The notes under the pieces are model-generated. The model saw only the letters and a list, made by a program, of their open reading frames with translations. It had not been told where the DNA came from and ran no database searches. From the NCBI GenBank assembly GCA_022571295.1, contig JACZYA010000010.1, positions 1 to 42,596 of the forward strand: a stretch of 42,596 nucleotides of DNA. The letters are read 5' to 3'. Below are positions 17,793 through 42,596 of the stretch, piece after piece. The stretch's first letter is position 1; the number at the start of each line of letters is the position of its first letter. Origin of the DNA: Acidobacteriota bacterium. Lineage in GTDB: Bacteria; Acidobacteriota; Terriglobia; Acidiferrales; 2-02-FULL-67-57. A program made the translations under genes and the position numbers.

Positions 17793-17813
17793 AGGTCTGT
17801 AGAAATAATAAAT

Positions 17814-18943: not shown

Positions 18944-18965
18944 CTTCACCTTGAAGGGAGAGAAG

Positions 18966-22385: not shown

Positions 22386-22435
22386 CTCGACCTCATGCCC
22401 GGAGCCACGCCCTCGGCTTGGCTCCGCCGGGATGC

Positions 22436-23671: not shown

Positions 23672-23750
23672 CGAACTCAGTACGATTGGAAGGGCACGGC
23701 TCCTGCCCGCCGATCACCCGCTGACGAGGAATTTCATGGTCGCGACAGGC

Positions 23751-25343: not shown

Positions 25344-25591
25344 GGTGCGGTTCGCCTCGACGGCATTTTTTTGTTCTGGTGCTGTCCCCCGAGACTAAGG
25401 CGGGGAGTATAAGGTCTGAGCGGTTGAATGCAAAGCTCGGCCTGCGAGTTGGAAGAACCGCCGTCGAATCCGAGAGCTTGGGAGCACCTGCGCCAGTCAG
25501 CCCGCCCGCTTTGACCTTTGGATGTATAATGCGCCCCGGTTTTCTTCAATCGCGAGCACAAGCTGAACCTGAGAGTTTCAAGGGAGGGAGC

Positions 25592-28021
25592 ATGAAAACG
25601 CGCATCCGGTTTCTGCTGGTCGTCACCCTGCTGGCGTCGCTGACGCCTCTTGCCGCTCTGGCCAGCGGCTGGCAGCACATCGGCGACGTAACCGGCGTCA
25701 AGAAGTTGCCCAACGGGGTGGAGTTGAAAGCGGGGCAGGCAAGTGTGCGGGTGCTGGCGGTCGGTGAGTCCACCATTCGCGTGCGGCTGGCTCCCAGCGG
25801 CGCCTTTCCTGCTGACTATTCCTGGGCGGTGCTCCCCGAGAGCCTCTCGATAGTGCGCGTCAACGTCCGCAATACCCGCCGGGCGGTGGAGTTCAGCACG
25901 CCCAGCCTGACCGTCCGAATCCAGAAGTCGCCGCTGCAAATCGTATTCTTGGACCCGGCCGGAAACGTAATTGTGCAGGACGACCCGCAACAACCGATGG
26001 CTTGGCGCCAGCAGCGTGTGCAGGTCTGGAAGACAATGCCGCCCGAGGAGCACTACTACGGCCTGGGAGAAAAGGCCGGCCCGATGGACCGGCGTGGCCG
26101 CGCCTTCACCATGTGGAACACCGACGCCTTTGGCTGGCAGGAGTCCACCGACCCGCTCTACAAATCCATCCCGTTTTTCCTGGGCTTGCGCGGCGGCGTC
26201 GCCTACGGAATCTTTTTTGACAACACCTTCCGCACCAGTTTCGACTTCGGCACCCAATCCAGCGATACCTACTCCTTCGGCGCCGAGGGCGGCGAGCTGG
26301 ACTACTACTTCTTCTACGGCCCGCACCCCAAGAAAGTGCTGGAGGCGTACACCGCGCTGGTGGGCCGCACGCCGCTGCCGCCGCTCTGGACGCTGGGCTA
26401 CCAGCAGTGCCGCTACAGTTACTTTCCCGAGGCCCGCGTGCGCGAAGTGGCGCGCCTTTTCCGCGAAAAGAGAATCCCCGCCGACGTGCTCTACCTCGAC
26501 ATTGACTACCTGGACGGCTTCCGTCCCTTCACCATCAACCGCGAGTACTTCCCCCACTTTGAAGAAATGATCGCCGACCTGCACGGACAAGGCTTCAAGT
26601 TCATCTCCATCATTGACCCGCACCTGAAGAAGCAGGAAGGCTATTTCCCCTACGACCAGGGCGTCGCCGGCGACCACTTCATTAAGAACCCGGACGGCTC
26701 GCTCTACGTGGGCGTGGTCTGGCCGGGCGAGAGCGTCTTTCCTGAATTCACCCTGGAGCGGACCCGCCAGTGGTGGGGCACGCTCTTCCAAGAGCTGATG
26801 GACGCGGGCATTGACGGCATCTGGAACGACATGAACGAGCCCGCTATCTTCTTCCGCGCCGACAAAACCATGCCGCTCGACACCGTCCACCGCACCGACT
26901 TCGGCACCACCGACCACCGCGAGGTCCACAACATCTACGGCACGCAGATGGTGCGCGGAACCTACGAAGGTCTGCTGAAGCTGCGGCCCAACCGGCGTCC
27001 CTTTGTGCTCACTCGCGCCGGCTACGCCGGCAGCCAGCGCTACGCCGCCACCTGGACCGGCGACAACACCAGCTCCTGGAACCATTACCGCATGACCGTC
27101 CCCACTTTGCTCGGCCTGGGCCTCTCCGGTTATCCCTACGTGGGGGTGGACATCGGCGGCTACGCCGGCAGTCCCCCCGCCGACCTGCTCACGCGCTGGA
27201 CGCAGCTGGGCGCATTTACGCCCCTGTTCCGCAACCACACCCAGACCGGGAGAGCAGACCAGGAACCCTGGGTGCACGGCCCCGAGCACGAAGCCATCCG
27301 CAAGCGCTACATCGAGTTGCGCTACGAATTGATGCCCTACATCTACACCAACATGGAGGAAACCACGCGCACCGGCATCCCGCTCATGCGCCCGCTCTTC
27401 CTCGAGTATCCCGAAGACGGCGGCACCTACGGCAATGATCGGCAGTTCCTCTTCGGGCGCGACATCCTGGTGGCGGCCCAGTTGGACGAGATGACTGACA
27501 GTTGGACCTTTGGACTCCCGCCGGGCGAGTGGTACGACTACTGGACGGGAGAAAAATTCGCGGGGCATCAAGTGCTGCACGAATCGCCGGAGCTCGACGA
27601 GTTGCCGCTCTACGTGCGGGCAGGCGCCATCATCCCGCAGCAACCCATAGTCCAGCACACCGACGAAGTCCCGCAGGGCCCTCTCACCCTGCGCGTCTAT
27701 GCCGGCGAGGACTGCGAGGGCTCCCTCTATCTCGACGACGGCAAAACCTTCGACTACACCCGAGGCGAATACCTGCGCATCCACTTCGCGTGCGAATCCA
27801 GCGAAGACGGCGTGCGCATCACCCTCTCCGCCTACGAAGGCAGTTACAAGCCCTGGTGGAAAAAGGTGCAGTTGGAGGTGTTCGGGTTGCGGAGGGCGCC
27901 GCGGGAAGTCCGCGTCGGAACCAAATTGGTCACTGACTGGCTCCGGTTCGGCTCGCAAGGACAACTGATGCTGGAGATTCCCGACACTCCCGCAGCCGAC
28001 GAAATCCACATCGTCTACTAG
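25592..28021 (+). CDS. secreted GH31 alpha-glucosidase
   Basis: This enzyme hydrolyses terminal alpha-linked glucose (or xylose) from oligosaccharides outside the cytoplasm. A signal peptide (FLLVVTLLASLTPLAALAS) starts the protein. The N-terminal galactose-mutarotase-like domain leads to the TIM barrel, with the nucleophile Asp in GIWNDMNEPA (~residue 413), RAGYAGSQRYAATWTGDNTSSW with the acid/base Asp (~491), and the C-terminal beta domains. The product is ~809 residues, normal for GH31. The ATG 25592 has AGGGAGGGAG upstream; the longer frame above it is non-coding. It is divergent from the symporter gene. Confidence 0.93.
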   Translation: MKTRIRFLLVVTLLASLTPLAALASGWQHIGDVTGVKKLPNGVELKAGQASVRVLAVGESTIRVRLAPSGAFPADYSWAVLPESLSIVRVNVRNTRRAVEFSTPSLTVRIQKSPLQIVFLDPAGNVIVQDDPQQPMAWRQQRVQVWKTMPPEEHYYGLGEKAGPMDRRGRAFTMWNTDAFGWQESTDPLYKSIPFFLGLRGGVAYGIFFDNTFRTSFDFGTQSSDTYSFGAEGGELDYYFFYGPHPKKVLEAYTALVGRTPLPPLWTLGYQQCRYSYFPEARVREVARLFREKRIPADVLYLDIDYLDGFRPFTINREYFPHFEEMIADLHGQGFKFISIIDPHLKKQEGYFPYDQGVAGDHFIKNPDGSLYVGVVWPGESVFPEFTLERTRQWWGTLFQELMDAGIDGIWNDMNEPAIFFRADKTMPLDTVHRTDFGTTDHREVHNIYGTQMVRGTYEGLLKLRPNRRPFVLTRAGYAGSQRYAATWTGDNTSSWNHYRMTVPTLLGLGLSGYPYVGVDIGGYAGSPPADLLTRWTQLGAFTPLFRNHTQTGRADQEPWVHGPEHEAIRKRYIELRYELMPYIYTNMEETTRTGIPLMRPLFLEYPEDGGTYGNDRQFLFGRDILVAAQLDEMTDSWTFGLPPGEWYDYWTGEKFAGHQVLHESPELDELPLYVRAGAIIPQQPIVQHTDEVPQGPLTLRVYAGEDCEGSLYLDDGKTFDYTRGEYLRIHFACESSEDGVRITLSAYEGSYKPWWKKVQLEVFGLRRAPREVRVGTKLVTDWLRFGSQGQLMLEIPDTPAADEIHIVY

Positions 28022-28037
28022 GCGGCCGGTTTGCGGC

Positions 28038-30674
28038 TTATCTGCCGGTATTGAATCGGATCAGAATTTTGCGCCGCATGTAAGTCCCATCGGCGGTGGC
28101 AGGAAACGTGACTCGAAGGTGCCCCTTACCCTGACCGGATGCCACCAACTCGGCGCCTTCCACGCCGGCAATTTGGTCCGCGCCCCATAGCGAGATTTCA
28201 TACTCGCTGCCCGCCAGCCCGGCCACTTCCACCTCCAACCGGTCGCGACGGTCATTCCAGGAGCGGGAAACCACTTTGAGATTTCGGCTGCTGCCGCCCA
28301 GGGGCGGTAGGTTGGCGGAGACGTGCAGGGCAAAGTCGTCCTGCAGCCGGATGCGCAGGGTGTTGGGGCCTCCGGGCACCGGGAAATGCACCACCACGTG
28401 CTGGTCCACGGCGCTGGTTTGGAGCCGGAAAGCAACCGGCCGGCCGTTCATCTCCACCCCGAGAACTTTCGCGCGCAGACTGACCGCAGGGGCAAACTCG
28501 AGCACAGCGTCGCCGGAGCCGCTGCGCTCGATTTCAAGCGTGATCTCGTCCCGCGACTTGCGATAAGAAAGACGCAAGGTTGCGCTGCCCACCGGCAAGT
28601 TCTGGATTTCAAACCAGTCCCAGGAAGCCGGCACGTGCGGGGCCAACGTCACGCGGTTGGCGGTGGCGTCGGACTCCAGCCCGAAGAGCCCGCGCAGCAG
28701 CGGGCTGATGACCATGGCAGCCGACCAAATCTGGTGGGGCGAACTGGTGGAGAGTTCCGAGTAATAGGAGCCGGAGAGCACTTCCGTCACGTGGCCCAGC
28801 GAGCGGTCGAGCGCAAGCAAGGCGTTGGCGCGCAGGTTGGCGTAGGCGGGGAAGGCGCGGTGGGCGCGGTACTCGCCCACGGAGGCCCAGCCCGTGAAGA
28901 GCGGCCACACGCTGCCGAAGTGGTAGCCGGTGGGGCCGAAGCGCGCGTCCTGCGAAGAAATAATTCTCATGCCCCAATCGGCGGCGTGGTCGGCGTCGGC
29001 CAGCCGGTTGATCATTGCGTTGGCTTTCTCGGCCGCGAGCAGGTCGAACCACAGCGGCACGGTGGCGAGCACGCTGGCCACTTCCACTTTTTTGTTTTCT
29101 TGGTCGAGGGCGAAGGCGAAGATATTTTTCTCGGGAACCCAGAAGGCATCGTTCAGGAGAGCCCTCTGACGGGCGAATTCCTGTTCGAGTTCATTCTGGA
29201 TTTCCTCTTTGCTGGTCAGGCGGGCCAGTTGGGCCAGCGCCCCGAGCGCCGCGACGCCCAGCCCGCTCTGGTAGAATTCCGTCCGAACCGGCAGCAACGG
29301 CCCGCCTTCCACCCAGCCGTGGCCCACGCCTTCATTCTGCGCGAAGCCCTGCGGACCTCGCGTGGATTGCAGGAACGCATGGGCCTTCCACAGGCTGGCC
29401 CAGCGATCTTGCACGAAGGTCAGGTCGCCGCTGCGCACGGCGTAATCCTTCATGGCGAGAATGAAGAGCGGGGTGGCGTCGGCGGAGGCGTATCCGTAGG
29501 GATAGTCTTCGAACCAGGGAACGAAATTCGCGCCCTGCGCAACTTCGTGCGGGATCTTTCCATCGTCGCGCTGATACTGGATAAGAAAGTCCAGCGCCGT
29601 GCGGACGTTGGCAAAATCACCGGCGGCGTTGAGCGCCAGCGCGGTCCAGAGGGCGTCGCGTCCGAAGAACCAGGCAAACCCCGGGCGGGCGTTGCTGCCG
29701 GAAGTTCGGTAGCCCGCTATCAGCCCGCTGCCCAAGAAAGGATTGTTGACCATTCCTTGCAGCACACTGACCCGCGACCAGTCGTAGGCTTGCTGGAGCT
29801 CGCGGTCGGGAAGCTTGAGCGCCACCGTCCGCTCCAAGTAGCGCCGGTAATGGTCCGCCGCCTCCTGCTGCAAGCGAGGAAAATCGCTGGAGAGACGCCG
29901 GTAGGTTTTCTCCGCTTCGGCCCGGCTCGCAACCGAAGCGGCCAGCACGATGACTTTCTGTTGCTTCCCTTTCTCCGTGCGTCCCAGCCGGAAAGAGGTT
30001 TTCCGGGAAGAGTTGGAGTTGGTGGAGTATTCCTGGCGGGGCTCGGCGGCGGAGGGGGAACCAATCAGGGCGAAGAATCTGCGCTGCTCTTCTCCCAGGG
30101 CGAAGGCGCGCAGCGTAGCATTCCAGCCCATGTAGGTTCCGCCCAACGCTGCGGGCCACATGAGTTGGAAATCGCGCTCGAAGCCGGCCTCGACTTCGAG
30201 CGGTTCAGCGGTTTCGATTTCGAGGATGATGACAGCGCCGGGCTCATCCACCGGAACGAAGAGCGTCTCCCGAACGACGAAGGAATCGCCGGTGTAGAGG
30301 ATGCTGCACGATTCGGGGCGAACGGTTACGGTCCGGGCCAGCGAGGCGGCGGGCAGGGCGCGGCCTCCGACGTGGAACGTCAAGCTGAAGTCGCGCAGAA
30401 TTTTCAGCGGATAGACCCATGCTTCCAAGCGGCCGTCTTCCCGCCCGAACAGCGCCGCGCGCGTCCCCACCGCGCTCAAGAACTCCCACGGACGGACAGC
30501 GCGGGACAGTTCAAGAGTGCGGTCTGGGGCTGGTTGCGCTTGGGCGTTGGTCTGCGCGACTGGCGGGCCGACCGCGGCCGTCGATTCCCCTGGTTGGGCG
30601 GGGAGCTCAGGAAGGGCGCAAAAGCTCAGCAGGAAAACGCAGACGGGAATCCCTATCCGTGAATGGAGCCTCAT
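28038..30674 (-). CDS. secreted amylo-alpha-1,6-glucosidase-like hydrolase
   Basis: An 878-residue exported protein. A signal peptide (GIPVCVFLLSFCALPELPAQ) is followed by a beta-sandwich domain (~45-290), an (alpha/alpha)6 catalytic barrel (~300-690) and C-terminal beta domains. The barrel carries PGFAWFFGRDALWTALALN, DGKIPHEVAQG, GHGWVEGGPLLPVRTEFYQSG and GYHFGSVWPLFTGW, as in the glycogen-debranching C-terminal (GDE_C) and GH15/GH63 superfamily. The linkage cut is not clear. It converges with GH31 (stops 16 bases apart) and is divergent from the ASPIC gene. With GH31 it would degrade alpha-glucans outside the cell. Confidence 0.8.
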   Translation of the reverse strand: MRLHSRIGIPVCVFLLSFCALPELPAQPGESTAAVGPPVAQTNAQAQPAPDRTLELSRAVRPWEFLSAVGTRAALFGREDGRLEAWVYPLKILRDFSLTFHVGGRALPAASLARTVTVRPESCSILYTGDSFVVRETLFVPVDEPGAVIILEIETAEPLEVEAGFERDFQLMWPAALGGTYMGWNATLRAFALGEEQRRFFALIGSPSAAEPRQEYSTNSNSSRKTSFRLGRTEKGKQQKVIVLAASVASRAEAEKTYRRLSSDFPRLQQEAADHYRRYLERTVALKLPDRELQQAYDWSRVSVLQGMVNNPFLGSGLIAGYRTSGSNARPGFAWFFGRDALWTALALNAAGDFANVRTALDFLIQYQRDDGKIPHEVAQGANFVPWFEDYPYGYASADATPLFILAMKDYAVRSGDLTFVQDRWASLWKAHAFLQSTRGPQGFAQNEGVGHGWVEGGPLLPVRTEFYQSGLGVAALGALAQLARLTSKEEIQNELEQEFARQRALLNDAFWVPEKNIFAFALDQENKKVEVASVLATVPLWFDLLAAEKANAMINRLADADHAADWGMRIISSQDARFGPTGYHFGSVWPLFTGWASVGEYRAHRAFPAYANLRANALLALDRSLGHVTEVLSGSYYSELSTSSPHQIWSAAMVISPLLRGLFGLESDATANRVTLAPHVPASWDWFEIQNLPVGSATLRLSYRKSRDEITLEIERSGSGDAVLEFAPAVSLRAKVLGVEMNGRPVAFRLQTSAVDQHVVVHFPVPGGPNTLRIRLQDDFALHVSANLPPLGGSSRNLKVVSRSWNDRRDRLEVEVAGLAGSEYEISLWGADQIAGVEGAELVASGQGKGHLRVTFPATADGTYMRRKILIRFNTGR

Positions 30675-30755
30675 TGCAACAGCAATCTTGTTTCAATATA
30701 GTTTAGGATGGCGCGGATTGTAGCATAACGTTTGGCACCGACAAGGAGTTTCCCT

Positions 30756-32582
30756 GTGCTTCTTTCTCGGCGAAGATTTTTGCGCTCGTTGAGCCGTTCC
30801 GCCCTGGTGCTTCCCCTGGAAGGCGTTCTGGCGATGGCACGCCCGCTGAGCTGGCGCAGCTTCCACGCGGGCACGCCTGCCCAGCCACCCGCGAGAGCCT
30901 CGGATGAACTCGGCGTCACTTTCACCGACGTGGCGCGCCAAGCGGGGCTGAACGCCAAGACGGTCTTCGGCGGCGAGCACAAGAATAAATATCTGTTGGA
31001 GACCACCGGCTGCGGCGTGGCTTTCTACGATTACGACAACGACGGCTGGCTCGACATTTTTCTCGTCAACGGCTGGCGCTTGGAAGGTTTTGCGCCCGGC
31101 GAGGAGCCGACCTGCCACCTCTTCAAGAACAACCGCGACGGCACCTTCACCGACGTAACCGTGGAGGCGGGGCTGGCAGCGTCCGGCTGGGGGCAAGGGG
31201 TGTGCGTGGGCGACTACGACAACGACGGCCACGAAGACCTGTTCATTACCTACTACGGCAAGCACGTCCTCTACCACAACAACGGCGACGGCACCTTCAC
31301 CGACGTGACCGCGCAGGCGGGGCTCGCAATCGAGCCGCCGCGCTGGAGCACCGGCTGCGCCTTCGTGGACTACGACCGCGACGGCTATCTCGATCTTTTT
31401 GTCGCCAACTACATCGAGCTGGACTTGGCCACGGCGCCGGTGCCGGAATCGGGGCCGTGCCTCTACAAAGGTGTGCTGGTGGCGTGCGGGCCTCCCGGTT
31501 TGGCGGGCGGGAAAAACATTCTCTACCATAACAACGGCGACGGCACTTTCACCGATGTGTCCGAAGCGGCAGGCATCACGCAGGCCAACGGAACCTACGG
31601 GCTGGGTGTTCTGACCGCCGATTTCGACAACGACGGCTGGCCCGACATCTACGTTGCCAACGACTCCACTGCCAGCGCGCTCTATCGAAATCAGAAGGAC
31701 GGCACGTTCATCGACGTGGGTATTATCGCCGGGGCGGCCCTGAGTCCGGATGGAAAACCGCAGGCAGGCATGGGGGTTTCAGCCGGCGACTACAACCGGG
31801 ACGGGAATCTGGACATCCTCAAGTCCAACTTCGCGGGCGACACCGACTCGCTCTATCGCAACCTGGGCGAGGCCAACTTTGAAGACAGCACCTTTGCCGC
31901 CGGGCTGGGTGTGAACACGCGGTTCCTGGCCTGGGGCTGCGGTTTTTTTGACATGGACAACGATGGCTGGCTCGACATTCTGATCTGCAACGGCCACGTC
32001 TATCCCGAGGTCGAGCAACTGAGAACGGAAGCGGGCTACGCCCAGCGCAAGACGCTCTACCGCAACCTCCGCAACGGACGCTTTGAAGAAGTGACACGCC
32101 AGGGCGGGACGGCCATCACTGCGCTTGCGGCTGCGCGGGGCTGCGCCTTCGGCGACTTCGACAACGACGGCGACCTCGACATTGTCGTTAATACCATGAA
32201 TGGCTACCCGCAGCTCATTCGCTGCGATCTGGCGCTGGACCACAACTGGATCAAGGTGCGGACAATCGGAACCAAATCCAACCGCAGCGGCATCGGGGCA
32301 CGGCTGAAGTGCGTCACGCGAGCGCCGGGGGAAGAAGATCTCCAAGAGCAAATAGATGAAGTCCGCAGTGGCGGCGGCTACTTGTCGCAAAACGATCTGC
32401 GCGTTCACTTCGGCTTGGGCAAGGCGGAAACGGTTGAGCGGTTGGAAATCCGCTGGCCCAGCGGGCAGGTTGATACGCTGAAAAACATTCCCGCCAACCA
32501 GGTCATCACCGTCAAGGAAGGCAAGGGCATCGTCCGCACGGAAACTTTCCCCGCCGCTCAGGAAAAACCGTCCAAGGAATAG
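30756..32582 (+). CDS. Tat-exported FG-GAP/ASPIC-UnbV repeat protein
   Basis: The N-terminus SRRRFLRSLSRSALVL is a twin-arginine signal. The mature part carries repeated calcium-binding-like FG-GAP/VCBS units with cores such as YDYDNDGWLDIFLVNG, GDYDNDGHEDLF, FVDYDRDGYLDLF and FDNDGDLDIVVN, each next to HNNGDGTFTDV. The C-terminal ASPIC/UnbV domain follows (SNRSGIGARL...DEVRSGGGYLSQNDLRVHFGLG). Such beta-propeller proteins are abundant in Acidobacteriota and bind ligands or surfaces; no enzyme activity is implied. GTG 30756 was chosen because AAGGAG lies 8 bases upstream and the Tat motif follows at once. Confidence 0.88.
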   Translation: MLLSRRRFLRSLSRSALVLPLEGVLAMARPLSWRSFHAGTPAQPPARASDELGVTFTDVARQAGLNAKTVFGGEHKNKYLLETTGCGVAFYDYDNDGWLDIFLVNGWRLEGFAPGEEPTCHLFKNNRDGTFTDVTVEAGLAASGWGQGVCVGDYDNDGHEDLFITYYGKHVLYHNNGDGTFTDVTAQAGLAIEPPRWSTGCAFVDYDRDGYLDLFVANYIELDLATAPVPESGPCLYKGVLVACGPPGLAGGKNILYHNNGDGTFTDVSEAAGITQANGTYGLGVLTADFDNDGWPDIYVANDSTASALYRNQKDGTFIDVGIIAGAALSPDGKPQAGMGVSAGDYNRDGNLDILKSNFAGDTDSLYRNLGEANFEDSTFAAGLGVNTRFLAWGCGFFDMDNDGWLDILICNGHVYPEVEQLRTEAGYAQRKTLYRNLRNGRFEEVTRQGGTAITALAAARGCAFGDFDNDGDLDIVVNTMNGYPQLIRCDLALDHNWIKVRTIGTKSNRSGIGARLKCVTRAPGEEDLQEQIDEVRSGGGYLSQNDLRVHFGLGKAETVERLEIRWPSGQVDTLKNIPANQVITVKEGKGIVRTETFPAAQEKPSKE

Positions 32583-32601
32583 GTTCTCCGCGCGCGCCCG
32601 C

Positions 32602-33729
32602 TTACTGTTTGGGATTGTCGGGGGGCGTCTGCACAGCTTTTCCCGTACCTTCTTTGAGGGTAACGATGGTGTCAAGGGGAAGGTCGAAGAAGCGTTCCGT
32701 CAGGCCGCTGGGCCAGCGGATTTGCAGGTAATCGATCTTGGTAGCGGAGCCCAGGCCGAAGTGCACGCGCAGATCGCTGCTGGAATTGTAGCTGGAGCCG
32801 CTGCGCACCTCATCCACCAGGGTGCGCGCGCCCACCTGCAGCGTCAGGCGCGCGCCGATGCCGCTGCGATTCGATTCGGTGCCCACAGTCTTGATACCGA
32901 CCCAGTGGTTCTGGTAGCGCACCTGGTTCACCAGCAAGCTGGGCGGCGCGTTCATGTTGCTGACCACCGCTGAGAGGCGCCCATCATTCCACAGGTCGCC
33001 CACGGCGAGGCCGCGCCCGGAGCGTTCCGCGCTGATGCCGGGGCCGGCGGCCTGGGAGATGTCGGTGAAAGTGCCGTCGCCATTATTATGGTAGAGCACG
33101 CGCGGCTGGTGGTAGGAGCTGCCGAGTTTGTGGATGTCCACTTCGGGATAGACGTGGCCGTTAATGAGCAAGAGGTCAGGCCAAGTGTCGTTGTCGAAGT
33201 CAAGGAACATGGTGCCCCAACCGAGGTACTGGGTGTTCAGCCCCATGCCGGCCGGGAAGGTCAGGTCGGAGAAGGTGCCGTCGCCGTTGTTGCGATAGAG
33301 GGTGGAGGTGTCGTCGGAGAAGTTGGTCTTGAAGATATCCAGGTGGCCGTCGCCGTCGTAGTCGCCCACGGTTGAACCCATGCCGGCCTGCTCGCGCCCG
33401 TCTTCGTTGACGGCCGCCCCGGCCAGTATGGCAACGTCGGTAAAGGTGCCGTCGCCGTTGTTGCGATAGAGAATGCTGGGAGTGCTGTCGCAGGCGATGT
33501 AGATGTCGGGCCAGCCGTCTTCATCGAAGTCGAGCGTCGAGACGCTGAGGGCGTAATAGCCGGCGGCTTGGTCGAATTTCGCTTTGGCGGTGACGTCCTC
33601 AAAGCGGCCGTCACCCCGGTTGCGGTAGAGGAGATTCGGAGCCGCCGGCAAGCCGCGCGGGCCGCACATCACGGCAATACCTTTCCAGAAGCAGTCGGCC
33701 CTCTCGCCGGGGGCGGGGGCGTTTTCCCA
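32602..33729 (-). CDS. second ASPIC/UnbV FG-GAP protein, 5'-truncated at junction
   Basis: The frame reads WENAPAPGERADCFWKGIAV and then MCGPRGLP, the standard middle of this family, followed by LYRNRGDGRFEDVT, four more FG-GAP units and the ASPIC/UnbV C-terminal domain (SNRSGIGARL...LRVHFGLG). The N-terminal signal and first repeats (~200 residues) are missing because the contig switches genome at ~33727-33741. The GTG at 33672 is an internal codon, not the true start. It converges with the first ASPIC gene (stops 19 bases apart), forming a pair. Confidence 0.85.
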   Translation of the reverse strand, partial: WENAPAPGERADCFWKGIAVMCGPRGLPAAPNLLYRNRGDGRFEDVTAKAKFDQAAGYYALSVSTLDFDEDGWPDIYIACDSTPSILYRNNGDGTFTDVAILAGAAVNEDGREQAGMGSTVGDYDGDGHLDIFKTNFSDDTSTLYRNNGDGTFSDLTFPAGMGLNTQYLGWGTMFLDFDNDTWPDLLLINGHVYPEVDIHKLGSSYHQPRVLYHNNGDGTFTDISQAAGPGISAERSGRGLAVGDLWNDGRLSAVVSNMNAPPSLLVNQVRYQNHWVGIKTVGTESNRSGIGARLTLQVGARTLVDEVRSGSSYNSSSDLRVHFGLGSATKIDYLQIRWPSGLTERFFDLPLDTIVTLKEGTGKAVQTPPDNPKQ

Positions 33730-33741
33730 CGCGGCGGCGGA
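33727..33741. other. chimeric junction B/C at a GC-rich triplet run
   Basis: Reading - the ASPIC frame is convincing up to WEN; reading + the dioxygenase frame is convincing from RRRIEDL. Between them is ACGCGGCGGCGG, which can serve both genes. Both are cut here in mid-gene and in opposite directions. Confidence 0.7.
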
Positions 33742-34187
33742 TCGAGGATTTGATCCACGACTACGCCCACTGCATCGACGACGACCGGCTCGAGGAATGG
33801 CCGGATTTCTTCACCGCCGACTGCTTCTACCAGGTGATCTCGCGCGCCGATCACGCCCGCGACATGCCGGTGGGCGTGATGACCTGCACCAGCCAGGGCA
33901 TGCTGCGCGACCGCATCTTCAGCCTGCGCAAAGCCAACATCTATGAGCCGCACTGCTACCGTCACCTGATCAGCGCCATCCGCATTCTGGGCCGGGAAGA
34001 CGGGCTGTGGTCGGTGCAAACCGGCTACGCCGTGATCCGGACCATGCAGGAGGGGGACATATCAGTGTTCAGCTCCGGCAAATACCTGGACAAGATCGTG
34101 TTCGAGAATGATCGGACCAGGTTCAGGGAGCGCGTCGTCGTCTTCGACTCGCGCCGCATCCACACCCTGATGGTGATCCCGATTTAG
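33732..34187 (+). CDS. ring-hydroxylating dioxygenase small (beta) subunit, 5'-partial
   Basis: This is a non-catalytic cone-shaped subunit of an aromatic-ring hydroxylating oxygenase such as anthranilate or benzoate dioxygenase. The product has IEDLIHDYAHCIDDDRLEEWPDFFTADCFYQV, the typical opening of the NTF2-like fold, then SLRKANIYEPHCYRHLISA and the ending RRIHTLMVIPI. The frame stays open upstream into the junction; TTG 33750 is only the first possible start codon and leaves too short an N-terminus. The alpha subunit and reductase that should lie beside it are not in this window. Confidence 0.8.
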   Translation, partial: RRRIEDLIHDYAHCIDDDRLEEWPDFFTADCFYQVISRADHARDMPVGVMTCTSQGMLRDRIFSLRKANIYEPHCYRHLISAIRILGREDGLWSVQTGYAVIRTMQEGDISVFSSGKYLDKIVFENDRTRFRERVVVFDSRRIHTLMVIPI

Positions 34188-34242: not shown

Positions 34243-34417
34243 TTATACCACCCTGCGGCGATAGGTACCCGTTTCATGGCACCGAAGGCCGGGTTCTTTT
34301 GTCCGAATGCAGCGTTGCGCTTGGCTTGAAGTGCGGGCACTGCGGCGCCAAGCGCGCCTTGCCTTCGGGCAAAATAATCCCGGTGAAATGAGTGCCTATC
34401 ACCGCAGGTTGGTATAA
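34243..34417. repeat. 175-bp MITE-like long imperfect inverted repeat
   Basis: The ends are TTATACCA and TGGTATAA. The outer arms match over ~24 bases with 3 differences (34243-34266 with 34394-34417). Inner arms also pair (34289-34324 with 34347-34382, with a few mismatches and a small gap), leaving a short central spacer. No ORF is inside. Length, structure and intergenic position fit a non-autonomous mobile repeat or a large REP-type element. No target duplication is clear. Confidence 0.65.
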
Positions 34418-34420: not shown

Positions 34421-34867
34421 GTGACAGGCGATCTCCCTGGCGCGGTGCTGTTCTGCTGCACCATGAATGCGATCCGCTCGCCGATGGCCGAGGCGATCAC
34501 CAAGCATCTGTTCGGCCACGCCGTCTACGTCGATTCGGTGGGCGTGCGCCGCGGCGCGCCGGACCCGTTCACGGCGATCGTGATGGACGAGATCGGCATC
34601 GACCTCAGCCGGCACCGGCCCAAGTCGTTCGACGATCTCGAGGACGAATCCTACGACCTCGTGATCCCGCTGTCGCCCGACGCGCAGCACCGCGCGGTCG
34701 AGATGACGCGGACCATGGCGTGCGAGGTCGAGTTCTGGCACACCTTCGACCCGTCGTTCGTCGAAGGCAGCCGCGAGGTGCGTCTCGACGCCTACCGCGA
34801 GGTCCGCGACGGGCTCATGGCGCGCATCGCCGACCGCTTCTCGCGGCCGCCGGCGCCCGTGGTGTGA
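34421..34867 (+). CDS. low-molecular-weight protein-tyrosine-phosphatase family
   Basis: The P-loop C-x5-R-S is present as CTMNAIRS near residue 13, and the general-acid Asp lies in the DPSFVEG loop (~residue 110). Further typical stretches are [13 protein letters not shown] and ISHRPKSF-like [15 protein letters not shown]. The 148 residues are full length. In alphaproteobacteria a gene of this family commonly stands before infA, as here. The start is GTG 34421, 3 bases after the MITE-like element, so its promoter or ribosome site may have been altered by that insertion. Whether it acts on protein tyrosine, arsenate or another phosphate is not shown. Confidence 0.85.
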
Positions 34868-34983: not shown

Positions 34984-35202
34984 ATGGCAAAGGAAGAAGT
35001 TCTCGAATTTCCCGGCATCGTGACCGAGCTGCTGCCCAATGCGATGTTCCGCGTCAAGCTCGACAACGACCACGAGATTCTCGCCCACACCGCCGGCAAG
35101 ATGCGCAAGCACCGCATCCGTGTGCTCGCCGGCGACCGGGTGACCGTCGAGATGACGCCGTACGACCTGTCCAAGGGCCGGATCACCTTCCGTTACAAGT
35201 AA
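34984..35202 (+). CDS. infA: translation initiation factor IF-1
   Basis: A 72-residue S1/OB-fold protein with the near-invariant sequence [20 protein letters not shown], then [19 protein letters not shown] and the end [14 protein letters not shown]-1 binds the 30S A site at initiation. The downstream genes usual in alphaproteobacteria (Maf-type nucleotide pyrophosphatase, ribonuclease G/E) are not here; an IS begins 6 bases after the stop codon. Confidence 0.97.
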
Positions 35203-35208
35203 GTAGTC

Positions 35209-36687
35209 GGCCCTGAAGAATCGGTTTTCGGGTCAGGTTTGGGAGTAGATCGGCGGGTGCCGCAAGGTGTTGCGGTTTTCGGCGGCTGAGAGCAGCGCCA
35301 GGATGAGGGCAAAAAGAGCCTTCAGGTGGTTGAGGATGAGGCGCAGGTTGTGGCCGGCGGCGCACAAGAGCGCATTGACGGCGTCGCCGGCGTGGCCGAG
35401 CAGGTAGTTGCGGCCGAGCCTGCCGTCGGTTTTCATGTGGCCGATCATGGGTTCGATGGCGCTTCGTCGCCTGAGTTCGCGTTTCATGGTGGGCGTGAGG
35501 CCGCGGCGCCGGCCGGAGATGAACACACGCTCGGGCTTGTCGTAATCGTGACCGCGGTAGCCCTTGTCGGCGTAGTAGCGCGTCGGTTCCACGCCGCTGA
35601 CCCGGACCACCTGTTCATTGGTCTGGGCCAAGGTGTGGCCGTCGTAGGGATTGCCGGGGAACGCCTTCGAGGCCACGACGAAGCCCTCGCGATTGGTCGT
35701 GGCGACCGCCACCTTGCAGCCGAACTCGTACTTTTTGTGGGCCTTGCCCTTGGCGATGCAGACCACTTCAGGCGCATGGAGCGCGTAAAGCTTGTTCTTG
35801 TCGTGGCGCTGTTGGTTGAGCAGGCGTTCGACCAGAGGGAGAAGCCGGGCGAAGGCGTGCTCCAGCTCGGGCTGCCCGTCGACTTTGCGCGAGACGTCGC
35901 GGTGGACCCGGCCGAGATAGGTCTTGAGCCGCTTGATCTCGCGGCGCATCCGCTTCATCTGCCGCGCGTGGGCGTAGCGGCCGGCCCGGCGCGACGCCCG
36001 CTTGGCGAGGCGCGTGTGGCTCTGGCGCAGCTTGATCCCATGCCGCTTGGCCTGGCGCACCAGGGTGTTGAGCGCGCGCAGGTAGAGCCGGGCATCGGTG
36101 GGATGGGCGATCGCCTTGGGCTGCACCGTGGTATCGACGTTCACTCGCTCCAGGCTCGAGGGCTTGACGGCGCCACTCTCGAGACCGGCGCGCACCGTCT
36201 CGACGAGCAGCCCTTCCATGCCGTCAGCCCCGATCCGCTGGCGCCACCGCGTCATCGATGAGGGGTCGATCGGCAGCGCGTGCTGGAAGTACTCGAAGCC
36301 GCAGAACCATTGCCAGTACGGGTTCTCGATCCAGCGCTCGACGACCTCTTCGTCCGAGAGATCGAACGCGTGCTTGAGATAGCTTAAGCCCACCATCAAC
36401 CGGGTCGGCGTCCCCGGCCGGCCGCGTTCCCGGTAGAGGCGGCCAAAGGCCCGATCGAAGCTGTCCCATTCGATGAGCCCGGCCAAACGGTACAACGCGT
36501 GCCGGCAGTCGAGAATGTTGTCGAGGCGGTGGCGGAAAAGGTCGTCGCTCAGAGAGCGTTCCTGCTTCTTGGGGCGCATCGGAAAACACCGGAAATCGAG
36601 ACCAAACCAACGATATCCGGCATTTTACAATACTTCAGAACCAAAAAGAATCCCTTCGATTCAATAACTTGAACATTTTTCAGGGCC
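35209..36687. mobile_element. IS5-family insertion sequence, complete
   Basis: About 1.48 kb, bounded by inverted repeats GGCCCTGAAGAAT (35209-35221) and ATTTTTCAGGGCC (36675-36687), with 12 of 13 bases matching. A 3-bp direct repeat GTC flanks it (35206-35208 and 36688-36690). One intact transposase ORF fills it on the - strand. It lies between infA and a 5'-truncated gene. The 3-bp repeat could be chance (1 in 64), so an assembly join through the IS is not excluded. Confidence 0.85.
35233..36579 (-). CDS. IS5-family DDE transposase
   Basis: A 448-residue transposase. The N-terminal DUF772-type domain includes GRPGTPTRLMVGLSYLKHAFDLSDEEVVERWIENPYWQWFCG. The catalytic part shows the first Asp in VNVDTTVQPKAI, the second in YYADKGYRGHDY and the Glu in SAIEPMIGHMKTDGRLGRN. 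All three acidic residues and the full length are intact, so the element may be active. It is transcribed toward infA. Confidence 0.93.
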   Translation of the reverse strand: MRPKKQERSLSDDLFRHRLDNILDCRHALYRLAGLIEWDSFDRAFGRLYRERGRPGTPTRLMVGLSYLKHAFDLSDEEVVERWIENPYWQWFCGFEYFQHALPIDPSSMTRWRQRIGADGMEGLLVETVRAGLESGAVKPSSLERVNVDTTVQPKAIAHPTDARLYLRALNTLVRQAKRHGIKLRQSHTRLAKRASRRAGRYAHARQMKRMRREIKRLKTYLGRVHRDVSRKVDGQPELEHAFARLLPLVERLLNQQRHDKNKLYALHAPEVVCIAKGKAHKKYEFGCKVAVATTNREGFVVASKAFPGNPYDGHTLAQTNEQVVRVSGVEPTRYYADKGYRGHDYDKPERVFISGRRRGLTPTMKRELRRRSAIEPMIGHMKTDGRLGRNYLLGHAGDAVNALLCAAGHNLRLILNHLKALFALILALLSAAENRNTLRHPPIYSQT

Positions 36688-36690
36688 GTC

Positions 36691-37317
36691 TACCTAGTTT
36701 GGCTTCGGGGCGGAGATGAATGGCAGTTCGTCGAGGAAGTCCTCCTGGAACGGATGTATGGTGGAGAGAATCGGGTCGTGACGCGGTGGGCCAAATCGCC
36801 AACCGTCACGGCCGTGAACGCGACTGAAGAGGATATTCAGGTTATTGGCAAATTGGTTTCCGAGTTGAACGAGGTGTTGCACGGCAGCGGTATCTCGATT
36901 CGCCAAGGCGACGGCGACGAAAACGAAATCCGGATAATTTTTACACTCAAAAAATCGATTCCACGTTTGGCCGAAGAGCTTGGCGGACATCACGTGCAAG
37001 AGGGCACGGGTTACTTCGTGGCCTATCCAAACGATCGTTTTGAAATTGAACGGGCTGTTGCTGTGATTGGTTCCGAACTGACCGGGAACGATCGACGAGC
37101 CACGATAGTCCACGAGTTAACCCATACTCTCGGCCTTATGGGCCACTCTCCGGTCTTTCCCGAGAGCGCAGTGTTCGCCAGCAAAACTAAGACCTCGTCG
37201 GCCTCGCGGCTGGCGCCAATAGACCGCAAGCTCATACGTTTCCTCTATTTGCAGCTCAACCCTGGCGACCGATGGGAGGAGGTACGCTGGGCGTTTGAAA
37301 CGCACTGGCCTAGGTGA
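36691..37317 (+). CDS. DUF2927-like metalloprotease-type protein, 5' end cut by IS
   Basis: The frame is open from the IS boundary through FVEEVLLERMYGGENRVVTRWAKSP, a stretch that fits the start of the DUF2927 domain, so the ATG at 36754 is probably internal and the true start (with a signal peptide) was lost to the IS. A metzincin-like HELTHTLGLMGH (HExxHxxGxxxH) lies near residue 146 of the open frame. Related proteins are exported and uncharacterised. Without its N-terminus the product may be non-functional or mislocalised. The family call is by pattern only. Confidence 0.6.
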   Translation, partial: YLVWLRGGDEWQFVEEVLLERMYGGENRVVTRWAKSPTVTAVNATEEDIQVIGKLVSELNEVLHGSGISIRQGDGDENEIRIIFTLKKSIPRLAEELGGHHVQEGTGYFVAYPNDRFEIERAVAVIGSELTGNDRRATIVHELTHTLGLMGHSPVFPESAVFASKTKTSSASRLAPIDRKLIRFLYLQLNPGDRWEEVRWAFETHWPR

Positions 37318-37375
37318 CTTCACCGATCGGCGCAGCTTAGGCGAATTGACCTTGAAACGCGGGAGTTGCCGGGAA

Positions 37376-37399
37376 CGAAAACAGGAATTCCTGTTTTCG
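37376..37399. terminator. 24-bp perfect palindrome, possible terminator or operator
   Basis: CGAAAACAGG and CCTGTTTTCG flank a central AATT; the whole is a perfect palindrome 58 bases after the DUF2927 stop. As RNA it gives a 10-bp stem with a 4-base loop. The T-run after it is poor, so a protein-binding operator is an alternative. Confidence 0.45.
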
Positions 37400-37660
37400 A
37401 ATGGGTTTTCTGTGCGTTCGCCGGCGGCTTGTCCGCGTGAACCCTCGATAGAGAGGTAAAGCACGTCGTTACTTCGTGAATATCTCGGCCGTGATCCCGT
37501 CACGCGGGCGCAGCATTCGCCTCCCGAAAGCGGATCCAGAGGTTCCGCTCGTCCGCCTGTCGGCCAACCCGGTCATGAAAGTCGCGAAATTGACCCAGAG
37601 AGCGCGGATGACGATTCGCCGAACTTCCTGATCCGACTCTTTATCGATGTTACGGGCTGG

Positions 37661-38167
37661 TTGCGCGACACCTTTGGCGATCCAGAAATGGAACGGTTCG
37701 AAAGGAGTCCGAAATTTCCGCTGGGTGGCCCCAGAGGCGAAGTCACGCCGCGAGTGGGACCGGTTGTCGCCGGATTCACGGCAGGCATTCAAATCCGCGT
37801 GTCGGCGACTGGAGTTAGCCCGAATGTCGAACGTGCGACACGGCGCGCCGTTGCTCGCTGTGCATCAAATCTCTCCGACAATCTACGTACGAAGTTGACG
37901 GAACAATTCGGTCCTTCGCCGCCCGGCTTCCCGCCTGGCGTGCAGACCGGACGCTTGGCCGATAGCATCAAGGTCGAATTCGACTCTGATGGGTTCGGAG
38001 CAACCGTCGGGACCGATGTCCCCTACGCTTGGTTCCTGGAATTCGGTACGATGGCGATACCAGCACGGCCGTTCATCCACCCGACGTTCGAACGTTTCGA
38101 ACACCAAATTGTGAGCGACGTGACCAACGAGGTGCTTACGGCGCTTCGTCTTGACGGTGTCGCGTAG
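37661..38167 (+). CDS. HK97-gp10-like phage connector/tail-completion protein
   Basis: The C-terminal half matches the HK97 gp10 family: GRLADSIKVEFDSDGFGATVGTDVPYAWFLEFGT followed by PARPFIHPTFERFE, the hallmark YAxxxEFGT...RPF pattern. Such proteins complete head-tail joining or the tail in siphophages and gene transfer agents. The start is uncertain. The frame is open from 37460 without a good start codon; TTG 37661 or ATG 37688 are the candidates. A 51-codon GTG ORF in another frame (37476-37631) precedes it and may be a small phage gene or a decayed start. No capsid, portal or terminase gene is present nearby. Confidence 0.7.
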   Translation: MRDTFGDPEMERFERSPKFPLGGPRGEVTPRVGPVVAGFTAGIQIRVSATGVSPNVERATRRAVARCASNLSDNLRTKLTEQFGPSPPGFPPGVQTGRLADSIKVEFDSDGFGATVGTDVPYAWFLEFGTMAIPARPFIHPTFERFEHQIVSDVTNEVLTALRLDGVA

Positions 38168-38280
38168 TCGCAAGTGCACCGACTGGCGCCCGAGTTGGAT
38201 CAAACCTTTGATCGGTCGCGTACCGAAGCCCCGCCGCCGCCGTCGCGTCGGCGCTTGACGGCGTCGAGACGACGCTCGTC

Positions 38281-38487
38281 GTGCACGTCTGGGGCCGCCA
38301 GCGCGGCCACAAGGAAGTCAAGCAGATCCTCGCCGAAATCCACCGCATCCTGCACGACGCCGACCTGACGGTGCCCGGCCATGTCCTGGTTTGGCTGCGG
38401 TACGGGTTCTCGCAGACATCGCTGGACGCGGACGGCGCCACCTACCACGGCATCGCCCGTTACAACGCCCTGACCAATCAGGCGTGA
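38281..38487 (+). pseudogene. DUF3168 phage tail-terminator remnant, N-terminus lost
   Basis: The frame TTLVVHVWGRQRGHKEVKQI, then LVWLRYGF and HGIARYNALTNQA, matches the C-terminal two-thirds of DUF3168 proteins (tail terminators, gene after HK97-gp10 in siphophages and gene transfer agents). The N-terminal ~60 residues are missing: a TGA stops the frame ~75 bases upstream. A different frame (from GTG 38174, with LDQTFDRSRTEAP) may hold part of the lost start, implying a frameshift or small deletion. It follows the gp10-like gene in the usual order. Confidence 0.6.
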
Positions 38488-38489
38488 TA

Positions 38490-38700
38490 CCAGCGAGCGC
38501 ATGTTCTTGTGCTCGCTGGCAAGCGCGCCAGTTTTAATCGCAATAATTGGGCGCCGCCGCTTATGCGGCGTAAGGCTGCGTGCCGTTTGAACGCAAGGCG
38601 AGTCGATACATCGGCTCGCCGGTAGGAGAGAGCCGCCGAGAGGACAGGCGGCGTGATCGTGAGCATCGCGGCAGGTGCGCCGTATCGCGAGCAACGGCGC
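38490..38700 (+). ncRNA. tandem GC-rich hairpins, possible structured RNA
   Basis: Five separate inverted repeats lie in 211 bases with no ORF: 38490-38519 (12-bp stem with one G-U pair, loop of 6), 38555-38570 (6 bp, loop TTAT), 38597-38620 (GGCGAG/CTCGCC plus inner CGA/TCG), 38632-38652 (GCCGCC/GGCGGC) and 38677-38700 (GCGCCG/CGGCGC). They fill the spacer between the DUF3168 remnant and the lysozyme gene. This could be a structured RNA, an antitermination site or stacked terminators. High GC makes some stems expected by chance. The strand is assumed from the neighbours. Confidence 0.35.
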
Positions 38701-38743
38701 GTCGCCGCCCGGTTTTGAACGAGTCTTGAAAAGGTGGAATGTT

Positions 38744-39598
38744 ATGGAAATGCAGTCGCCGAAATTGGAGAGATTGCTGACGAATAAACGCGCAGGCTGG
38801 GCGAACATCCCAAAGACGGGATCGATACCCGGCGTGACAACCCCGGCGGGCACGGGCTCGATCCTGGTCGAGAAGGTCACCGGCTGCATCATCCTGTCCG
38901 ACGAAGGCAAGCCGTTCACGCGGCCAGAAAAGGTGTCCTTTACCTGGGCAGCCAGGATCGACGTGGACCGGTACCGGCAGAAAGTCGACGACTTCGAGGG
39001 CCACGTCACATACATGTACCTCGACATAAAGGGAAACGTTACAGTCGGGCTTGGCCATTTGATCCGAAACGCGGCTGAAGCGAAGCAGCTCCGCTTCTTT
39101 GAGCGCGGAACGACGAACCCAGTTCATCCGGCGCACATTGAAAACGCGTTCAATAAGGTGCTCAACTCGCGTCTCGCGGGCAGCAAACACACCGCCTTCA
39201 AGGACATGACCCACATCGACCTCGATCTCGACGAGATCGAAAATCTGTTCGACGACGATGTTATGCAGTTCATCCACGAGCTAAATCACAAGTTTACCGA
39301 CTTCGAGACTTACCCTGCTTCCGCTCAACTCGGCATGCTCGATCTCGCCTACAACATGGGCACCACACGTTTTGCCGAGGGGTTTCCTGTCTTTCGAGAC
39401 GCTCTAAAGTTTCGGAACTGGCTCAAAGTGGCCGAAGAGTCCCACCGTAAGGAGGTGGACGAGGAAGGGAACGTCAACGAAGGGATGCAGAACCGCAACA
39501 AAGTCGTCCGCGGATGGTTCCTGGACGCGATCAAGGACGAGCCCTTCTTCGTCAATCCCGATCGTCCGCCGAGGCGGCTATCGATGATTCCGGGCTAG
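38744..39598 (+). CDS. T4-type (GH24-like) lysozyme with N-terminal extension
   Basis: A peptidoglycan muramidase of 284 residues. The T4 lysozyme catalytic spacing E-x8-D-x5-T is exact in EGHVTYMYLDIKGNVTVGLG (near residue 86), and the helical lobe includes SAQLGMLDLAYNMGTTRF. An ~80-residue N-terminal extension has no recognised domain and no signal peptide or TM helix, so export would need a holin or other route. AAGGTGG lies 7 bases before ATG 38744. Phage genes upstream suggest prophage origin, but the following genes encode envelope-type proteins, so a domesticated role is possible. Confidence 0.8.
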   Translation: MEMQSPKLERLLTNKRAGWANIPKTGSIPGVTTPAGTGSILVEKVTGCIILSDEGKPFTRPEKVSFTWAARIDVDRYRQKVDDFEGHVTYMYLDIKGNVTVGLGHLIRNAAEAKQLRFFERGTTNPVHPAHIENAFNKVLNSRLAGSKHTAFKDMTHIDLDLDEIENLFDDDVMQFIHELNHKFTDFETYPASAQLGMLDLAYNMGTTRFAEGFPVFRDALKFRNWLKVAEESHRKEVDEEGNVNEGMQNRNKVVRGWFLDAIKDEPFFVNPDRPPRRLSMIPG

Positions 39599-39617
39599 GG
39601 ATTGGGCACGATAACGA

Positions 39618-39746
39618 GTGAATGTCAAGAATCGCGAGTGTTGGACGCGAGCGCAATCATTGAAGTGGTTCATTGCGGGTGCAACCGTTATCCTCGTCGC
39701 TATAATCATTAACGCGACCCTTTGGTTCGAACGGTCGATCGGTTAA
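39618..39746 (+). CDS. 42-residue single-pass membrane protein ORF
   Basis: A GTG-started frame encodes 42 residues: a basic N-terminus (VNVKNRECWTRAQSLKW), one hydrophobic helix (FIAGATVILVAIIINATLWF) and a short tail. Its stop overlaps the ATG of the next gene (TAATG), and it begins 20 bases after the lysozyme stop. Size, topology and position resemble a small spanin, holin or antiholin, but there is no sequence signature. No strong ribosome site is visible. Confidence 0.45.
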   Translation: MNVKNRECWTRAQSLKWFIAGATVILVAIIINATLWFERSIG

Positions 39747-41587
39747 TGGCGCTGCACAGACTGCGACGAATTCATTATCCGGACAGGTTTCTCGTCGCGA
39801 TCGTTTTCGCTGGCATGGTTTGGCTTGCGCCAGTGGCTGGCGTCGCCAACGAGGATGTTGCGAAGGCAACCTTCGCGCAGGCGGTCGAGCTGGTCGAACA
39901 GGCGCGGCAGACAGACTCGCTTAGCGAGCGGTGGACGTTCTACGAAACCGCTCGTGCTTATATGTCGCAGATTCGCGACTCGCTCTCCGGCACCGACCTC
40001 GCGCGCCGATTGGGGGATGAGGAGACCCCGGAAGGGGCGCTTTACGCCGAGGTGAAGCGGGCGGTCTTAGAGACCGGCAAGGCGGTCTGCGAACGGAACC
40101 TTACCGCCGCCTGCATCTTGCGATTCGCGCGCGACGTCCTACGAATCATCAACCCGGTTTCGGGCGACGATTTCCTGGTTGACGTCGCCAAGTCACAGGC
40201 TGCGGTGGGCGACGTTGCCGGCGCCTTCGCCACCATCGAGACGGTTCACTCGATTTCTTATCGCGAAGCCCTACCGCCGATCATGACCGCCATGGTGAAA
40301 ACAGGAGACCTTGCGGAGGCGTTGGCGAAGGCGAAAGGCTTTCCCCGCCGCCGCGACCGCGATGTCGCCCTATCGTCTATTGTTCGAGCCCTGGCCGAGA
40401 AGGGAGACGTGGCCAACGGTGGGGGCGTCGCTGCGCAGATCGGGGAGGCCGGCGCCCGCTCCCTCGCGGTGGCGACGCTGGCCGGGTCCAGCCCATTGGA
40501 GGAAGAGGGGCACGACCCGTCGGTGCTCTTTGCCGAGGCTCTCGGCCTCGCCGAGACCGTCGACGACGCCAAGGCCCGCGCCAAACTGCTGTTTAAGATC
40601 GCCGAGATCCAATTGACCGTCGACAATAATGTCGGCGCGCGCGAGACCTTCGTAGCGGCTTTCGCCGCCGCCCGCGCGATCTCCGACCCGCGGGGCCGCT
40701 ATCACTTGCTAAACGCTGGATACCGGTATTCGAATGCCGAATTATCGGACTCGGCAAGAGCGGTTAAGGACGAGTTCCGAAAAACGGCCGCCCAGATCGA
40801 CGAAACCCGGAACCCGATCGACGACCCGATCGACGATGCCAGAGCGAAGATCAAGAGCGGAGATATTGCTGGCGCCAAGGAGTCGTTGCGCCAAGCGCGC
40901 GAGATGGTCCTTGAGATCGAATCAGCGGATTCTCGCAACTTCAATCTTTACCGAATCATTAAGTTGCGATCGATGATAGGCGATATAGACGGGGCGTTGG
41001 CGGACTGGGCCTTGATGCCCAGCCCTTCACGTGACGCTTCGTATTCTCGCGCGCAAGCTGCACATGCACGAGATCCGATCGCGCGTGCGCTGGCCAAGGC
41101 AGGCGATATCGAGGGTTTGAATGGTCTGCTTGAGACGGTTGATGATCAATTAGAACGCGATAGTTTGCTCCTGTGGCAGGTCATCCCCAGCCTTGCCGAA
41201 AACGGATGGACTGGGGAGGCCCATAGGTTCGCCGGCGAGCTCGTCGAACTCTCCTGGCGTCTTTCACAGGCGATGGTCGTGATTGCGAAGGGCGAAGCTG
41301 CTGTGGGCGACTTTGAAGCTGCTTTGGCGACTGCTGGTTCTATTACCCAACGGAATGATCGGGCAAAAGCGTTCAGCGAGATTGCCGTAGCGCATTTCAA
41401 CAAGGGACGCCAAAACGAAGCGAAAAAACTTTTGATGATGGCGTTCCGGGAAATGTTCGGCCCTGGCGGAATTCTTTCGGGCAAGCGTTCGGTCTACAGT
41501 TCGGACTTGCAATACATTAGTGTATTTGATTCGGAGGCTTTCAAGAAGATCGGCGAGGTTTTGGCGGAGATTGAAACCCGCAACTGA
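39746..41587 (+). CDS. exported TPR-like alpha-solenoid protein, function unknown
   Basis: A 613-residue protein with an N-terminal hydrophobic signal (FLVAIVFAGMVWLAPVAGVA, then NEDVAK). The rest is helical repeats of ~30-35 residues with TPR-like A-G-D-x-x-x-A cores, such as AVGDVAGAFATIETV, KTGDLAEALAKAKGF, KAGDIEGLNGLLETV and AVGDFEAALATAGSI. It is probably periplasmic or membrane-tethered and a protein-binding scaffold. No partner is known. The ATG at 39746 overlaps the stop of the small membrane ORF, implying coupling; no separate ribosome site is seen. Confidence 0.7.
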   Translation: MALHRLRRIHYPDRFLVAIVFAGMVWLAPVAGVANEDVAKATFAQAVELVEQARQTDSLSERWTFYETARAYMSQIRDSLSGTDLARRLGDEETPEGALYAEVKRAVLETGKAVCERNLTAACILRFARDVLRIINPVSGDDFLVDVAKSQAAVGDVAGAFATIETVHSISYREALPPIMTAMVKTGDLAEALAKAKGFPRRRDRDVALSSIVRALAEKGDVANGGGVAAQIGEAGARSLAVATLAGSSPLEEEGHDPSVLFAEALGLAETVDDAKARAKLLFKIAEIQLTVDNNVGARETFVAAFAAARAISDPRGRYHLLNAGYRYSNAELSDSARAVKDEFRKTAAQIDETRNPIDDPIDDARAKIKSGDIAGAKESLRQAREMVLEIESADSRNFNLYRIIKLRSMIGDIDGALADWALMPSPSRDASYSRAQAAHARDPIARALAKAGDIEGLNGLLETVDDQLERDSLLLWQVIPSLAENGWTGEAHRFAGELVELSWRLSQAMVVIAKGEAAVGDFEAALATAGSITQRNDRAKAFSEIAVAHFNKGRQNEAKKLLMMAFREMFGPGGILSGKRSVYSSDLQYISVFDSEAFKKIGEVLAEIETRN

Positions 41588-41604
41588 CGGCAGCATGGAT
41601 GCTA

Positions 41605-42393
41605 TCACTGAGTGCTGCACAGGTGATAAGATTCCGGCGAGCAAACGTAATCTTCAGCATCCAATACCCAAAGCACGCCGTCGGGTTCGTCGCGGATCAG
41701 GGTGAATAATTTGTGGGCGCCCCATCGTCCCTCTTTCGCTTTCACAATGGACCTCAAAAAAATATCTTCGACGCCATCATCATTAAAATCGGCGCGCCCG
41801 AGAATTTCGATGTGGATTCGATTGATTTCCGTTTCAACGGTCATCTCGTACGGACTCGCAACGGCGACGTCGTTCGGCCTGCGCAGTTTTTGGCCCAAAG
41901 GGATACGATAGTGGTTTGCGTCGTATAACCTGCACATGCCGTCGCAGGACGGCGACCCCTGCAACATTGCCGGCAGATAATCCAATGCGTCGGCGTTGAG
42001 GACGAAATTCGCCACATAACTCTCGTTGGACGGCTTCGCATCCGGGAAGAGTTCGATGGGAGAACACTGCCTGTATAGTGTCATCCAAAGGTAGATGTCG
42101 GGGGAGTCGATTGCGCCCGAACCTTCTTTCTCATACCGCCTGATATCGGCGCAGCTGTGGGCAATGACCGTGGTTCGGTTCTTTCCGATACCGACAAAGA
42201 GTCTGAAGCCGTCATCGCCCGGCCATAGGTTTCGTTCCAGGCGTTCGTCGATCTTGTCGAGGCTCTCGAGCCCGAGCTCGGGCGACCACCAGACCGGGTA
42301 GGGGGCGGCTTCCTCGGCCCAGGCCGGGGCGCCGATCCCGAGGCAAAGCGCGACCACGACCGTCGTGATCATAAGGGCCAGTTTTCGCCGCAC
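41605..42393 (-). CDS. exported protein with FG-GAP-like segment, unknown function
   Basis: A 262-residue protein with a clear signal peptide (LALMITTVVVALCLGIGAPAWA). The C-terminal part contains GRADFNDDGVEDIFLRS, a single FG-GAP/EF-like D-x-N-x-D-G calcium loop, and the closing segment DAEDYVCSPESYHLCS has two Cys residues that could pair. Other Cys residues lie in SPSCDGMCRLYD. No family is recognised. The start is GTG 42393 or ATG 42372. It converges with the solenoid gene (stops 17 bases apart). Confidence 0.65.
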   Translation of the reverse strand: MRRKLALMITTVVVALCLGIGAPAWAEEAAPYPVWWSPELGLESLDKIDERLERNLWPGDDGFRLFVGIGKNRTTVIAHSCADIRRYEKEGSGAIDSPDIYLWMTLYRQCSPIELFPDAKPSNESYVANFVLNADALDYLPAMLQGSPSCDGMCRLYDANHYRIPLGQKLRRPNDVAVASPYEMTVETEINRIHIEILGRADFNDDGVEDIFLRSIVKAKEGRWGAHKLFTLIRDEPDGVLWVLDAEDYVCSPESYHLCSTQ

Positions 42394-42432
42394 GGGACAA
42401 TCCGTTGTGCTCGATACTCCCGGTCGAGCCCA

Positions 42433-42596
42433 TTATCGCGCTCGATGCGCCGCGCGCAAGGGTTGGGGATTGCAATTGCCGAGATCAAGCACATCCGACA
42501 CGGCGCAGGTCTTGCGACAGCGGGGCACGTGCTCGGCAGAATCCGCTTCGAGCAATCGCGGCGCCTGCACGACGCAGACCGGCTCACCCACCACGG
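42433..42596 (-). CDS. C-terminal fragment of an unknown Cys-containing protein
   Basis: The - strand frame from the window edge to the stop at 42433-42435 encodes 53 residues: VVGEPVCVVQAPRLLEADSA, then HVPRCRKTCAVSDVLDLGNC and a basic end. The Cys spacing and sensible composition suggest real coding sequence whose start lies beyond the window. It is on the same strand as the exported protein, ~40 bases before it, so the two may form an operon. Unrecognised. Confidence 0.4.
   Translation of the reverse strand, partial: VVGEPVCVVQAPRLLEADSAEHVPRCRKTCAVSDVLDLGNCNPQPLRAAHRAR

Follow-up and report, generated by a model that had tools for sequence, protein, structure and literature searches.

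Near position 33.7 kb of the DNA studied here, a minus-strand ASPIC/UnbV gene meets a plus-strand gene for a dioxygenase small (beta) subunit, and the locus raises the question of whether these two genes are neighbours in a living cell or were placed side by side during assembly. The window, the whole stretch that was analysed, is the entire contig C171 (42.6 kb) of the draft genome G000, a bin of 3.24 Mb in 287 contigs with a completeness of 98.56% and a contamination of 2.87%. It has a native segment (10604..33720) that encodes CusA/B/C-type efflux proteins, a dehydrogenase/thiolase block, a GH-type invertase, an SSF transporter and an MGH1-like GH and that includes two convergent ASPIC/UnbV genes. 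This is flanked by a plus-strand left foreign arm (1..10590) with genes for an ABC transporter, a CDP-alcohol phosphatidyltransferase, an HDOD protein, nusA, infB and a truncated truB, and by a right foreign arm (33.7-42.6 kb) with the dioxygenase beta subunit, a low molecular weight phosphatase (LMWP) family gene, infA, an insertion sequence (IS) and phage-like genes. The main finding is a chimeric joint at 33721..33731, which we regard with high confidence as a false join from metagenome assembly, an artefact rather than biology.

Position and nature of the joint

The minus-strand open reading frame at 32602-33810 contains FG-GAP and UnbV_ASPIC domains (Pfam), and its translation at the joint reads ...PRSAAAWEN|APAPGERADCFWKGIAVMCGPRGL.... 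The ASPIC/UnbV FG-GAP gene occupies 32602..33720 (minus strand; 76% identity to the ortholog in the related genome G005); in comparison with 14 intact loci of related genomes, homology begins at frame residue 29-32, at about position 33720, and never earlier, and blastn identity with G005 stops at 33721. The product resembles ASPIC/UnbV FG-GAP repeat proteins (PF07593, PF13517) in domain content, but the copy at the joint is the C-terminal part only, about 373 residues, with the 5' part of the gene missing; the open frame in the closest relatives has roughly 580-740 codons. The two ASPIC/UnbV paralogs of the window lie convergently at 30729-33720 and are about 50% identical, an arrangement also present in G005 and G019.

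The plus-strand frame to the right of the joint contains a Ring_hydroxyl_B/SnoaL_4 domain and represents a ring-hydroxylating dioxygenase beta subunit (33732..34187; PF00866/PF13577). Alignment with its closest relatives begins at residue 16/17 of P0001, corresponding to positions 33729-33732, and extends to the natural stop at 34187. It is like other such beta subunits (PF00866) in having a nearly whole domain and a natural C terminus, with 63% identity to alphaproteobacterial proteins, but differs in that its start codon and first residues are missing and no alpha subunit gene is adjacent, the neighbours being the ASPIC gene upstream and the LMWP gene and infA downstream. Both genes that flank the joint therefore lack their 5' ends. 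Since the homology on the left extends to 33720/33721 and that on the right begins at 33729-33732, the joint is placed in 33721-33731, a single point that lies inside both genes. Identity is 76% over 373 residues to the left and about 60% over 152 residues to the right, with nothing aligning across, and the break exceeds chance by far.

The first-pass annotation had described a mid-gene switch at 33727-33741 from ASPIC/UnbV on the minus strand to the dioxygenase small subunit on the plus strand, with a minus-strand frame that is normal as far as WEN and then becomes an Ala run. This description is borne out: homology is lost at 33720 and gained at 33732, the GCGGCGGCGG run that it had named, at 33731-33740, adjoins the joint and encodes AAA on the minus strand, and the interval that was given covers the joint, which the homology limits place at 33721-33731.

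A functional reading of the pair, as a gene fusion or an antisense overlap, was considered and rejected because both genes are incomplete and because the ASPIC gene is intact in the relatives, being unbroken at this locus in all 14 of those fetched.

The missing part of the ASPIC/UnbV gene

A false join predicts that the N-terminal part of the ASPIC protein is encoded at the end of another contig in the same bin, and this was tested by searching G000 with an N-terminal query of 171 residues from the G005 ortholog. The best match, at C247:1-453, covers residues 2-152 at 75% identity and starts from base 1 of the contig, whereas the next-best matches are ordinary paralogs at no more than 65%. 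On contig C67 of G005, positions 18192-19274 align with 32639-33721 of the window, 19334-19743 with 1-410 of C247, and 20282-21853 with 888-2459 of C247, and the G005 gene order is kept onward. This collinearity indicates that the true neighbour of position 33720 is C247, about 59 bp away, and not the dioxygenase gene. A change of source within two broken genes, with the lost half of the ASPIC gene opening a different contig of the bin, almost certainly reflects an error of assembly. It had been suspected at first pass that two sources were unsafely joined here, and both that suspicion and the accompanying warning against any operon or transfer story across this point are upheld by the collinear continuation at base 1 of C247.

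A real horizontal insertion would account for the same juxtaposition if an alphaproteobacterial fragment of at least 8.9 kb, with its IS, had entered the ASPIC gene and its far end joined C247. It should be noted that C247 begins about 59 bp away from the joint and does not overlap it, which counts against a false join, and that the same distance would result if a small target deletion had accompanied an insertion. There is also an IS5-family-like element 1.5 kb inside the right arm (35197..36699, minus strand; transposase at 35233-36579, PF05598 and PF01609). However, this element has its own 25-nt inverted ends (I2), 33721-33731 contains neither repeats (inverted or direct) nor an IS end, and element ends, a target-site duplication and an integrase are absent from this left joint of the arm. 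With regard to ALTERNATIVES, a natural insertion would also bring C247 near the joint, yet the arm begins inside a cut gene, the dioxygenase gene itself being severed exactly at the joint, and C247 opens directly within ASPIC, without foreign sequence at its start.

Lineage and composition of the two sides

The ASPIC side of the joint is clearly from the lineage of the bin itself. ASPIC relatives are present in 94 of the 101 genomes searched (G000 included), and the native segment at 10.6-33.7 kb has collinear blocks in the relatives G003, G005, G006, G008 and G019. Its tetranucleotide correlation with the bin contigs C247 and C193 is 0.78-0.90; with C247 taken singly, r is 0.84-0.90 for 10.6-33.7 kb and 0.90 for 22-33.7 kb, as against 0.69 for 33.7-42.6 kb. 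The right arm gives r = 0.89 with contig G337:C102, which belongs to the same class as the alphaproteobacterium G101, although this comparison is not fully independent since the same contig also matched the far end of the arm. The dioxygenase beta subunit has a match in 2 of 100 relatives of G000 and none in the other 98 (3 of 101 with G000 itself counted), and its best matches in named genomes are from alphaproteobacterial MAGs (61-63%). Lineage and composition thus both change at the joint. The right arm was not found again in the bin, the infA paralog excepted, and a plasmid search with the 30-42.6 kb stretch matched the IS transposase only, which is 74% identical to Microvirga plasmid IS5 family transposases.

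The LMWP gene (34421..34867, plus strand; PF01451) is followed by an infA of the alphaproteobacterial type (34984..35202, plus strand; PF01176), a second copy in the bin, whose native infA is at C193:17691-17882. LMWP and infA are adjacent in many genomes from the class to which G101 belongs and also in rhizobial plasmid records, and they form a conserved alphaproteobacterial pair. This pair, the best dioxygenase matches and the composition all support the alphaproteobacterial source proposed for the right side in the first-pass annotation.

These features also argue against a horizontal insertion, as the arm holds a housekeeping pair rather than mobile cargo, duplicates infA, and has a composition that is not ameliorated. 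Such an insertion is consequently considered very improbable, and it is similarly hard to credit that chromosomal DNA of an alphaproteobacterium, bringing a second, functional infA, was truly integrated into the ASPIC/UnbV gene of another lineage. The reverse arrangement, an alphaproteobacterial chromosome into which a large piece of the other lineage was inserted, is consistent with the presence of both lineages on one contig but has a very low probability, as the 10.6-33.7 kb segment has the main composition of the bin and continues collinearly onto C247. In alphaproteobacterial relatives, LMWP-infA is preceded by a gene that we take to be UPF0262-like and in some by hisD-like genes, with no dioxygenase gene there; the right arm may therefore have undergone a rearrangement of its own, or a further joint may lie between 34188 and 34420.

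The joint near 10.6 kb and the structure of the contig

A comparable break is present at 10588..10604, where a plus-strand truB frame runs into the minus-strand frame of a CusA-type heavy-metal RND pump. The motifs of the truB frame end after ...TGQISQMPP and the CusA homology ends after ...PFALVGGIWL, so that both genes are cut internally. The left arm (1-10590) has a GC content of 0.55 and differs in composition from the remainder of the contig, and its tetranucleotide profile matches the native contigs weakly; it carries nusA (6035-7342), infB (7363-9879) and the truncated truB (10243-~10600), all on the plus strand; we name the last truB on the basis of motifs in its sequence (40-43% identity to relatives). 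A second, native-like infB is located on C24, its IF2 product being 66% identical to those of relatives as compared with 49-51% for the window copy, and the bin therefore contains surplus single-copy markers in both infA (C171, C193) and infB (C171, C24). In bin G000, no contig end matches the cut-off C terminus of the CusA-type gene, and the 10.6-kb joint is therefore less completely proven than that at 33.7 kb. It is probably also a false join, and probably the first of the switches counted in the first-pass annotation. For a horizontal insertion, this other, unrelated cut-gene joint on C171 would demand another such event.

In the real genome, then, the ASPIC gene runs from 33720 across about 59 missing bases into C247, the dioxygenase-LMWP-infA-IS arm comes from an alphaproteobacterium present in the same sample, and the probable second false joint makes the contig a three-part chimera. 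We infer that the joint at 33721-33731 is an assembler or library error rather than an event in a living cell, a library chimera being less likely than assembly as its source. A usual de Bruijn k-mer is longer than about 11 nt; because the two sides of the joint have no more than about 11 nt in common, the false join may have come from a graph error, from scaffolding or from a library chimera.

Misassembly is a known source of error in metagenome-assembled genomes, although the authors of GUNC deem it rarer than mis-binning (PMC8201837). C171 resembles the interspecies chimeric contigs that they describe (PMC8201837) in combining fragments from several sources, with genes broken at the joint, and in giving one bin the marker genes of two lineages, but differs in that the place where the broken gene truly continues can be identified in the same bin (C247:1) and in having two joints within 42.6 kb.

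Recognition of the joint removes a false gene neighbourhood, ASPIC/dioxygenase, and makes it unsafe to read the sequence across 33721-33731 as an operon, a fusion or a transfer. Studies of gene transfer, operons or marker-gene phylogeny based on C171 would be misled, and a bin rated 98.6% complete and 2.9% contaminated holds a contig apparently derived from three organisms. As the only nusA of the bin is on the left foreign arm, the completeness of G000 is probably overstated. Even without read data, such cases can be decided by looking for the lost half of the broken gene at the ends of other contigs.

Two other elements were observed in the right arm. Between the dioxygenase stop and the LMWP gene there is a 175-bp MITE-like palindromic element (34243..34417; ends TTATACCA...TGGTATAA) with 34-nt inverted ends, an 85% inverted repeat and a DNA fold z of -7.0, which has no relative among plasmids or viral contigs. 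The remainder of the arm (36673..42596) encodes DUF2927, HK97-gp10-like and phage-lysozyme-like proteins (Pfam) and includes two further, unassigned genes. Within it, 38265-42596 matches G337:C102 in a circularly permuted manner, 38265-39598 corresponding to 9980-8782 and 39713-42596 to 13789-10980, both reversed, and this region, which has phage-like genes, may represent an element that is circular or mobile.
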